A stretch of 64,000 nt of DNA, from the NCBI RefSeq assembly GCF_023238445.1, contig NZ_CP096658.1, positions 1,426,001 through 1,490,000 on the forward strand. The letters are read 5' to 3'. How positions within the stretch are numbered: the stretch's first letter is position 1; each line of letters opens with the position of its first letter. The stretch is from Halorussus gelatinilyticus (GTDB lineage: Archaea > Halobacteriota > Halobacteria > Halobacteriales > Haladaptataceae). The notes under the pieces were generated by a model. It made no database searches. It was not told the origin of the DNA and saw only the letters and a program-made list of their open reading frames with translations. Positions 48,260 through 52,212 of this stretch are shown here, one piece after another. Position numbers and translations under genes: made by a program.

Positions 48260-48907
48260 ATGCTCGAACTCGATTCGCACGTCGAACGGCGCGAGGGAAT
48301 CGCGCTCGTGAATCTGGTCGTCCGGAACCCGACCGACGCGCCCCGCCGGGTTCGGGTCGGCAACCGACTCGACGGACCGGTCTGGCCGCCGCGTTGCGAA
48401 GGCGTCCCCGCCGCGGGGTGGGACGACGGCGGTTTCGAGGGCGTCGTCGCGGCCCGCGACCGTCGGGCGCTCGGGTACGCGAGTCCCGTGACTGCGGAGA
48501 GGGACGACGAACCCGCCGTTTCTCCGCCGGCAGAACTCGTCTGGACCGAGCGCGCCGGCGCGTCCGAATCCGGCACCGAGACCGGTTCGTTCGCCGACGC
48601 GGAGACGCCCGAGGGCGTCGTCAGAGCGCTCGGCGACCCGCGGCCGCCCGCCGACGCGGTTCCCGTCGCGGAACCCCGCTCCGCGGCGGACCCGGCCGCC
48701 GACGCCGACCCATTAGTTCCCGACGAGTCGGAGACCGACTCGTCGGTCCCGGAACCGGTCGAAGCGTGGCTCTCGGCTGTCGAGGAGCGCGCAGATGCCG
48801 ACGCCCGTGAGTCCGGACCGGACCTCCGACCCGCCGACCGGAACGCGGTCGGGACCGTCGCGGACCGAATCGACGCGCTCCGTCGCCGCTCGGGGCGGTC
48901 GTCGTGA
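48260..48907 (+). CDS. Conserved haloarchaeal protein, unknown (cluster gene 3)
   Basis: 215 residues from ATG (MLELDSHVERREGIALVNLV). Residues 1-75 form a beta-rich domain: NLVVRNPTDAPRRVRVGNRLDGPVWPPRCEGVP and WDDGGFEGVVAARDRRALGYASP. Then a long disordered acidic linker, and a helical end (AVEEWLSAVEERAD-like segments, TVADRIDALRRRSGRSS). The final helix may bind the MinD-type ATPase whose gene overlaps its end by 4 bp, in the way MinD-type ATPases often use short partner helices (inference). Confidence 0.7.
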   Translation: MLELDSHVERREGIALVNLVVRNPTDAPRRVRVGNRLDGPVWPPRCEGVPAAGWDDGGFEGVVAARDRRALGYASPVTAERDDEPAVSPPAELVWTERAGASESGTETGSFADAETPEGVVRALGDPRPPADAVPVAEPRSAADPAADADPLVPDESETDSSVPEPVEAWLSAVEERADADARESGPDLRPADRNAVGTVADRIDALRRRSGRSS

Positions 48908-49584
48908 TTCTGGCCGTCGCTGGCGGGAAGGGCGGCGTGGGCAAGTCCACCGTCGCGCTCGAACTCGGCGCGCGACTCGACGCCGTGGTCGTGGACGCCG
49001 ACCTCGCCATGGCCGACCTCGCGGCCGGGCGCGGCCCGGACCTCCACGACGTGCTGGCCGGGCGGGCCGACCCGCTCGAAGCGGTCCGCGAGGACGGCCT
49101 GGTCCGACTGCTCCCCTGCGGGCGTACCCTCGCCGGAGCGCGCGCCGGCGACGTGACTCGCCTCGTCGCGGCGGTCGAGACGGTCGAAGAGACCTACGGG
49201 TCGGTCGTCGTGGACTGTCCCGCCGGCATGGCCGCCGACGTGGGGATGGGCCTGCTGGCGGCCGATTGCTCGGTTCTCGTCACCGCGCCGCGGGAGTTCG
49301 CGCTTGCCGACGCGCTCCGGACCCGCGCGCTCGCCCGCGAACTCGACGCGGGACTCGCGGCCGTCGCGCTGAACCGGACCGACGAGGACCCGCCGACCGC
49401 GGAGGTCCGGCGAGCGCTCGGTGCCCCCGTGGTAGCGATTCCCGACGACGACCGGGTGCGGCGCGCGCACCGCCACGGCTCGCCGGTGTCGGAGATAGCG
49501 CCGGAGAGCCGACCCGCGAAGCGGTTCGAGAAACTCGCAGAAGAGTCGCGTCCGGCGCTCGATTCGCGGTCGTCGGTTCGGTAG
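48904..49584 (+). CDS. MinD/ParA family ATPase (cluster gene 4)
   Basis: 226 residues from GTG (MILAVAGGKGGVGKSTVALE). The deviant Walker A KGGVGKST with both lysines is intact, followed by VVVDADLAMADLAAGRG (switch 1) and SVVVDCPAGMAADV (switch 2, Walker B-like). The C-terminal region after about 150 lacks an obvious amphipathic membrane-targeting helix. MinD/ParA proteins position cargo such as chromosomes, chemoreceptors and archaella; haloarchaea have several. Coupled to cluster gene 3 by a 4-bp overlap. Converges with the TFB gene. Confidence 0.88.
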   Translation: MILAVAGGKGGVGKSTVALELGARLDAVVVDADLAMADLAAGRGPDLHDVLAGRADPLEAVREDGLVRLLPCGRTLAGARAGDVTRLVAAVETVEETYGSVVVDCPAGMAADVGMGLLAADCSVLVTAPREFALADALRTRALARELDAGLAAVALNRTDEDPPTAEVRRALGAPVVAIPDDDRVRRAHRHGSPVSEIAPESRPAKRFEKLAEESRPALDSRSSVR

Positions 49585-51208: not shown

Positions 51209-51271
51209 TTAGCCTTTGTGCGGGACGCACTCGAAGACGCCACAGGCGCCGAACGGAAGGATGCTAATCAT
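51209..51271 (-). CDS. 20-residue peptide with perfect Shine-Dalgarno
   Basis: ATG-started frame MISILPFGACGVFECVPHKG ending in TAA. A strong Shine-Dalgarno, GGAGGTGA, lies 6 nt before the ATG, complementary to the 3' end of 16S rRNA, in a genome where most genes appear leaderless. An AT-rich promoter region (51290-51385, with TTTATTAT-type boxes) lies upstream. The peptide has two cysteines (C10, C15), a hydrophobic core and a charged end. No similar gene is near. Peptide-coding status is inferred from the signals; function unknown. Confidence 0.6.
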   Translation of the reverse strand: MISILPFGACGVFECVPHKG

Positions 51272-51400
51272 TGTCTGTCACCTCCTGTTAGCCGAATCTC
51301 CCGAAAACATAATAAAACTAATTTTAGATATATAATAAAATATAGAAGAATAATTTAAATTTATTCACTAGATGAAAAGTTGTAAATGCCGACCGACGCC
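51272..51400 (-). promoter_or_regulatory. AT-rich promoter region of the 20-residue peptide gene
   Basis: About 100 bp of almost uninterrupted A/T, far below the local GC content, with several TATA-like sequences on the minus strand; the nearest (TTTATTATG) is about 50 bp before the ATG, placing the transcript start near the Shine-Dalgarno. Confidence 0.5.
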
Positions 51401-51441: not shown

Positions 51442-52212
51442 TCAGGAGAGCGCGTCGGGGACGAACTCGCCGACCTCCACGTCGAACAGTCCGGCCTCCT
51501 CGAACTCCAGACCCAACTCGGCGTCGAAGACGACTTCCGCGGCGTGCGCAACGGCGGGCGCGAACGTCGTTTCGGGGTCGGGCGCGCTCGCGGGCACGTC
51601 CGCGACGGTCGTCGCGTCGCTCGTCGGCACCGCGGCGTCGGCGCTCCGGAGCGGATGCTCGGGGCCGGCGCGAGTGGCGACCACGGCGTCCACGTTCGCG
51701 CCCACGTCCGTCACGCGCCCGCGGGTGCGCTGGACCGCGTCCACGCCGCGCTCGCTCGCTGGCGCGACCACTGCGACCCGCTCCGCACTCGTCACCGCCG
51801 CGACGGCCTGATTCGCGGCGACTGGCGGCGCGTCCACCAGCACGTGGTCGAACCTGTTCGCGGCCTCGGCGAGCAGTTGCTCGAATCGCTGGGCGGCGTC
51901 GGCGGTCTTCGCGCGGGCCAGTCGCTCGAACGGGCCGCGCGCCGGACAGAGTTCGAGTCGGCCCGCGAGGTCGGCGGTCGCGGGATGCTCCCGCAGTCCG
52001 TCGGCGAGCGTTCCGTCCTCGGTGAGCAGGGTCGTCACGTCGGGGTCGATGCGGCCCGAGAGGTGGCGTGCCAGTCCCTCGGTGGCGAAGTCGGCGTCGA
52101 GGACGGCGACTTCGCGGCCGTCCCGTACGAGCGTCGCGCCGAGTTCGACGGCGAGTCGAGTCGTGCCAGCGCCGCCGGTCGCACCGACGAGCGCGGCAGT
52201 CGAACGCGTCAT
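51442..52212 (-). CDS. MinD-fold protein with degenerate P-loop
   Basis: 256 residues from ATG (MTRSTAALVGATGGAGTTRL). The overall order matches MinD/ParA: N-terminal strand, AVLDADFATEGLARHLSG (switch 1), DHVLVDAPPVAANQAVAA (switch 2 region) and VAVVAPASERGV. The Walker A, however, reads ATGGAGTTR: both lysines of K-G-G-x-G-K-T are replaced by Thr. The end (GLEFEEAGLFDVEVGEFVPDALS) is acidic. ATP hydrolysis by the usual mechanism is unlikely; nucleotide binding may remain. A TATA box lies 25-32 bp upstream. No partner gene is adjacent on the same strand. Confidence 0.85.
   Translation of the reverse strand: MTRSTAALVGATGGAGTTRLAVELGATLVRDGREVAVLDADFATEGLARHLSGRIDPDVTTLLTEDGTLADGLREHPATADLAGRLELCPARGPFERLARAKTADAAQRFEQLLAEAANRFDHVLVDAPPVAANQAVAAVTSAERVAVVAPASERGVDAVQRTRGRVTDVGANVDAVVATRAGPEHPLRSADAAVPTSDATTVADVPASAPDPETTFAPAVAHAAEVVFDAELGLEFEEAGLFDVEVGEFVPDALS

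Follow-up and report, generated by a model that had tools for sequence, protein, structure and literature searches.

A putative cysteine-bearing micropeptide gene with a perfect Shine-Dalgarno sequence and its dispersed mini-gene family in Halorussus

Described short cysteine-bearing peptides and the Halorussus frame

Cysteine-sensing leader peptides, short frames with cysteine codons that precede co-directional genes, are known in other systems. Archaeal class II lanthipeptide precursors (LanA with LanM) are also short and cysteine-bearing; they are predicted adjacent to lanM and need serine or threonine partners. LanM is concentrated in Halorussus and occurs also in Haladaptatus (PMC12144867, PMC10105419). 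The C(P)XCG zinc-finger micro-proteins of Haloferax volcanii are small haloarchaeal cysteine proteins, some of which can bind metal (PMC11241148). Prochlorosins are Nif11-family lanthipeptides. In picocyanobacteria they comprise many varied precursors served by one promiscuous enzyme, ProcM (PMC10783134). Here we analyzed a 20-residue frame with two cysteines on the minus strand of a 64,000-nucleotide stretch of Halorussus gelatinilyticus DNA (contig NZ_CP096658.1; the whole stretch is hereafter the window).

The window peptide differs from each of these systems. It contains neither C-P-x-C-G nor C-x-C-G and has two cysteines in 20 residues, unlike C(P)XCG proteins as defined in PMC11241148. 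With one serine (residue 3), no threonine and two cysteines, the predicted peptide lacks the Ser/Thr complement of a class II lanthipeptide precursor. No lanM was present among the genes nearest to it, a statement that covers the neighborhood of the window peptide only, and the genes of the family described below are dispersed among unrelated genes. Among 41 family members, 24 have fewer Ser/Thr than Cys and seven have no Ser/Thr at all. The window frame is followed by a convergent gene, whereas cysteine-sensing leader peptides precede co-directional genes. The prochlorosins offer a model for a dispersed repertoire by analogy only, and no partner enzyme was identified for the Halorussus mini-genes.

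We estimate a probability of roughly 0.8 that the minus-strand frame at 51271-51209 is a true micropeptide gene, transcribed independently, and that it belongs to a dispersed, fast-evolving mini-gene family of Halorussus and a genus of the same taxonomic family. The architecture of the sequence, the family, the relatives at this site and the cysteine constraint are observed, and we infer transcription and translation. Small proteins as such are an already known kind of product; a preliminary description of this frame missed its membership in a dispersed family.

The coding frame, its start signal and its relatives at the same site

The micropeptide coding sequence, MISILPFGACGVFECVPHKG (20 amino acids, ATG to a TAA stop; 51209..51271, minus strand), is assigned from sequence and from its relatives at the same site in other genomes. 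The predicted peptide starts with MISILPFGACGVFEC and includes I2, S3, I4, P6, F7, C10, and C15. The frame is preceded by GGAGGTGA at 51285-51278 (minus strand), then CAGACA, then the ATG, giving a spacing of six bases. The match to the anti-Shine-Dalgarno extends beyond GGAGGTGA to AGGAGGTGA, and this Shine-Dalgarno (SD) sequence (51278..51286, minus strand) is also the predicted 5' end of the transcript. No other frame 12-35 codons long in the window is preceded by 8 or more bases that match the SD. The 110 bases before the ATG have a G+C content of 25%, while the surrounding stretch is mostly at 65-75%, and an AT-rich intergenic promoter region was delimited by base composition at 51290..51385 (no strand assigned). 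The preliminary description had claimed a 20-residue frame here, with a perfect SD six nucleotides before its start, an AT-rich region upstream, and two cysteines five residues apart, and all four held. Its coordinates were right, though the minus strand had been left out; the plus strand of 51209-51271 has different letters and contains no gene.

Two promoter elements were predicted. A TATA-like box, TTTATTAT (51309..51316, minus strand), starts 31 bases before GGAGGTGA and was assigned by a match to the TTTA-GGAGGTGA pattern and by the AT profile of the family. The usual spacing of archaeal promoters would place the transcript start at the SD, and because the TATA-like box lies ~30 bases upstream of GGAGGTGA, the transcript is predicted to start there. 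A putative -10 type WW element (TT; 51295..51296, minus strand), read from the sequence, lies 10-11 bases before the SD, where the family has an AT peak (-11/-10), and agrees with the haloarchaeal -10 consensus, which is WW (PMC4983044).

The site lies between two genes. Upstream on the same strand lies a ParA/MinD-like P-loop ATPase gene (51442..52212, minus strand; Pfam AAA_31, 5e-9, and synteny), with 170 bases between its end and the micropeptide ATG. On the other side, a convergent DUF7858 gene (PF25257; 50669..51175, plus strand; Pfam, 1.2e-72) has its stop 33 bases past the micropeptide stop. The ATPase-DUF7858 interval was extracted from 30 loci for comparison. A peptide frame was found at this site in four of 18 Halorussus genomes: that of the window itself, G008, G005, and G001. 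A DNA search returned a single strong match, in G008 (78% over 100 bases); it spans the SD and the frame, which encodes MISIRPFGCGAFACDPRPW; a second peptide, MLFTTPFDCGIHKCLPV, is in tandem with it. The same-site peptides of G005 and G001 are MIPITLFDCGRHKCLPRP and MQFVNPLSCGRFKCLPV, respectively, and the latter was found also in H. halobius HD8-83. All five same-site peptides share the motif C-G-x3-C-x-P, with M, C, G, C, and P invariant, and GGAGGT is invariant in all five copies. The window and G008 frames differ by one Ala codon, an in-frame 3-base indel. The window peptide is only loosely conserved, through one motif.

Presence at the ATPase-DUF7858 site is patchy. In seven other Halorussus genomes, the ATPase and DUF7858 genes are 2-39 bases apart without a peptide, and others carry different inserts. 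G013 has no such peptide at the site, yet its ATPase is 96% identical. The preliminary description had proposed a search for the peptide in relatives; same-site relatives with the same start signal were recovered, and the exact motif FECVPH, sought in 59 relatives, occurred in the genome of the window only. The strict patterns CGxFxC and CGx(F/H/L/Y)xCxP with an SD, searched in 392 haloarchaeal genomes, gave the tiny frame in Halorussus only, the rest being chance matches, and the same was true of CGx(F/H/L/Y)xCxP with an SD in 85,000 GTDB genomes. In-frame matches to a similar pattern in viral contigs belonged to longer unrelated proteins, and no plasmid DNA resembling the window region was found.

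The dispersed mini-gene family and its coding constraint

The start signal of the window gene recurs elsewhere in its genome. GGAGGTGA-N3-9-ATG occurs at 39 sites, against eight in a reversed control; this genome-wide count covers sites with the full GGAGGTGA only. Twenty-nine of the 39 sites precede frames of at least 60 amino acids and ten precede short frames. Seven of these ten have at least two Cys and an upstream G+C of 0.21-0.51; Cys is absent from the remaining three, whose upstream G+C is near 0.7. Across the 18 Halorussus genomes, an SD combined with C-x4-C was found at 24 places, against one in a reversed control, and many of these are short frames elsewhere in the genomes. Of the C-x4-C matches examined in other haloarchaeal families, most were ordinary genes or did not lie in frame.

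A pattern that makes no reference to cysteine, TTTA-N17-32-GGAGGTGA-N3-8-ATG, was then applied to 392 haloarchaeal genomes. Within the same taxonomic family, all 25 short frames read (16-29 amino acids) have at least two Cys, versus one of six frames (12-32 amino acids) outside it, where the places read were a selection (Fisher p ~3.5e-5, calculated by hand as 6/169911). Shuffled coding sequences have at least two Cys in only 18% of cases on average. Examples on the Halorussus side are MFGFNPLHVCDPYIDNGC, MFGLIPLHYCDADNRC, and MLAFSPFEIVCGYNQCFLA; MMFGFGLQIWCDYLGC is a member from genus g3 of the same family, which we infer to be Haladaptatus. In several haloarchaeal families outside this one, the TATA-SD pattern repeatedly leads a different gene, ~74-84 amino acids long, whose motif resembles SRYDLVLAxIPxxF (L240, L264, L265, L267, L268, L272, L273, L277, L287, and L291).

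The combined list holds 41 mini-genes from 10 genomes of one taxonomic family, with lengths of 16-29 residues (median, 19); it was filtered for at least two Cys, and many members were found by patterns requiring C-x4-C or an SD. The N-terminus is hydrophobic, often M-hydrophobic-x-hydrophobic-x-P-F/L: 35 of the 41 carry F, I, L, or M at position 2, and 17 carry P at position 6. Cysteines are usually near the C-terminus, and 14 members end exactly in Cys. At -33..-26 relative to the SD, AT content reaches 0.93 in the 19 members recovered by patterns that did not call for a TATA box, compared with 0.34 in 29 ordinary genes led by an SD. The second peak, at -11/-10, agrees with the -10 element of haloarchaea. 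The window peptide shares these traits, namely the placement of GGAGGTGA, a hydrophobic N-terminus followed by two or more Cys, and a TATA-like box ~30 bases ahead of the SD. No general conserved 3' element was found among the 41: GTATCG occurs downstream in only ~12 of them, in a stretch after the stop at loci including L227, L257, L230, L258, L027, and L228.

Related copies point to constraint at the protein level. Eleven sets of such copies gave a pooled pS of 0.47, a pN of 0.17, and a pN/pS of 0.37 (Fisher p ~8e-13), a significance that is overstated, since the pairs had been selected for similar peptides and some sequences enter more than one pair. All 33 Cys columns were retained, 14 of them with a synonymous TGT/TGC change. 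Two plasmid copies in H. caseinilyticus, tandem copies of MELSDLTEKQHSEGDFIPCICFVDE (L250, G002:C2:209904-213444, and L293), encode identical peptides with one synonymous difference and have diverged sequence after the stop. No gene is annotated at either copy in a gene table that is incomplete. A third copy similar to MELSDLTEKQHSEGDFIPCICFVDE lies on contig C1 (L223).

Synteny, the kept SD and TATA-like box, the in-frame 3-base indel, the conserved cysteines, and the synonymous changes together support the earlier proposal of a genuine peptide gene that has a promoter and a start signal of its own. Several points weigh against it. The pair selection and the filtered, pattern-based composition of the list are two of these, and the closest pair of the window gene has a pN/pS of 0.75 over 17 codons, which is not significant alone. 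The patchy presence at the ATPase-DUF7858 site is also what a dispensable or young gene would show. No recurrent partner, such as a modification enzyme, receptor, or exporter, was seen next to members. Finally, the SD mechanism is not in use at the 5'-UTRs of Haloferax volcanii (PMC3986360), and the role of the SD here is therefore not a given.

A chance frame behind an SD-like sequence, or the remnant of a longer gene, could account for a frame of only 20 codons that most of the genus lacks at this site. The conserved SD, the TATA phasing, synteny, the constraint on cysteines, and the family-wide enrichment make this explanation very improbable. A second alternative retains the transcript and treats the frame as incidental: a regulatory RNA, short and headed by the SD, would occupy 16S rRNA or pair with a neighboring mRNA. 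It would fit the perfect SD at the predicted 5' end, with GGAGGTGA present in 40 of the 41 members (3-9 bases before the ATG as the criterion), and the convergence of the window gene with DUF7858, through which read-through would be antisense to that gene. Constraint on the frame at the protein level, with its synonymous changes in Cys codons, argues against it, as do the plasmid copies, which diverge past the stop while the peptide stays identical. Folding of the predicted window transcript was not better than that of shuffled sequences (z = -0.57). For two other family transcripts, z was -0.46 and -1.45; a slice with z = -2.49 began inside the coding sequence. An Rfam search returned nothing above chance. 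We therefore consider a regulatory RNA unlikely, and we return to a peptide as the probable product.

Possible roles of the peptides and their genomic settings

We favor an action based on cysteine (cyclization, modification, or metal binding) over a leader peptide, a regulatory RNA, or a type I toxin. The predicted transcript would consist of the SD, a spacer, and a frame of 16-29 codons. The conserved N-terminus would act in recognition, and activity would lie in the variable stretch framed by cysteines, cyclized by a disulfide or another cysteine modification. The outcome would be a strain-specific repertoire of small peptides for signaling, antagonism, or thiol/metal chemistry. This pairing of a recognition N-terminus with a cyclized or modified cysteine part is tentative and is the least certain element of the proposal. 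The suggestion in the preliminary description of a signaling or modified peptide is compatible with these data and unproven; its other suggestion, a leader peptide, is unsupported because the next downstream gene, DUF7858, with its stop 33 bases away, is convergent.

As an attenuator, a leader peptide would regulate a downstream gene by its own translation, for example in response to cysteine, and a short SD-led frame containing Cys codons is what it would look like. A convergent gene also follows many of the other members (by heuristic gene calls), the neighbors are varied, and in several cases a T-run occurs ~55 bases or less past the stop, all of which add to the orientation of DUF7858 in making attenuation the most remote of the explanations considered. 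No T-run was present within that distance at the window copy. At one locus (L120), MLLTDLFNTCCPEPCTPDDCWA is followed after 136 bases by a co-directional gene starting MISKGCEQCAKGG...YGYCDQRDCFYC, which has a radical SAM-like look; its first 50 residues had no Pfam match. The very short peptide and strong start signal would also suit a type I toxin of a toxin-antitoxin pair. The hydrophobic run of the window peptide is ~8 residues by inspection, with no membrane-spanning segment, and a toxin is accordingly very doubtful.

The unmodified peptides might instead act inside the cell as thiol or metal ligands, binding zinc, copper, nickel, or cobalt or performing thiol redox chemistry through the Cys pair. 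This alternative departs from the cyclized or modified peptide in mechanism only, not in the gene. Every listed member has at least two Cys, kept between related copies, and one plasmid set lies near a CopG-type regulator. Many small Cys proteins occur in haloarchaea, and some bind metal (PMC11241148). Against a fixed metal site, the Cys spacing varies from 0 to 10 residues, 31 of the 41 members have only two Cys, and no metal-related neighbor recurs. We regard such a ligand as possible, at odds well below even.

Returning to the cyclized or modified peptides, the family would, in its broadest form, be a new kind of archaeal communication or antagonism system. It would comprise a genome-wide peptide repertoire of the Halorussus clade, with SD-started mRNAs, a recognition N-terminus, hypervariable cysteine cores, and processing or export in trans by shared machinery. 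That extension is doubtful at present. Such a system would sit in a clade thought to use the SD little. The family is a natural test of haloarchaeal SD use at 5'-UTRs because its predicted 5'-UTR contains hardly anything besides the SD. The size of the family, its shared promoter and start signal, and its strongly kept cysteines suggest an overlooked class of archaeal peptides, a hidden repertoire to which the window gene points. Frames of ~20 codons escape annotation, as at the two H. caseinilyticus plasmid copies. No such family is described in the literature searched, which covers few subscription journals. Searches of Pfam, NCBIfam, PHROGs, and PDB sequences gave no match at E up to 10 for the members searched, and profiles are weak at 20 residues.

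The genes nearest the window peptide are those for the ParA/MinD-like ATPase, DUF7858, HIT, and TFB. Two ParA/MinD-like ATPase genes (48904-49584, plus strand, and 51442-52212, minus strand) lie on either side of the TFB-like and DUF7858 genes, in a span of 3.4 kb. Members of the family are intergenic, single or in tandem; neighboring genes were called heuristically, and most of their names are a reading of the sequence rather than a database test. One site is reused across several species with different peptides, for instance beside an aconitase-like, a methylmalonyl-CoA-mutase-like, or a FolC-like gene. Between acetyltransferase-like and aconitase-like genes, the two-cysteine peptides differ among Halorussus species (L253, L123, L230, and L256).
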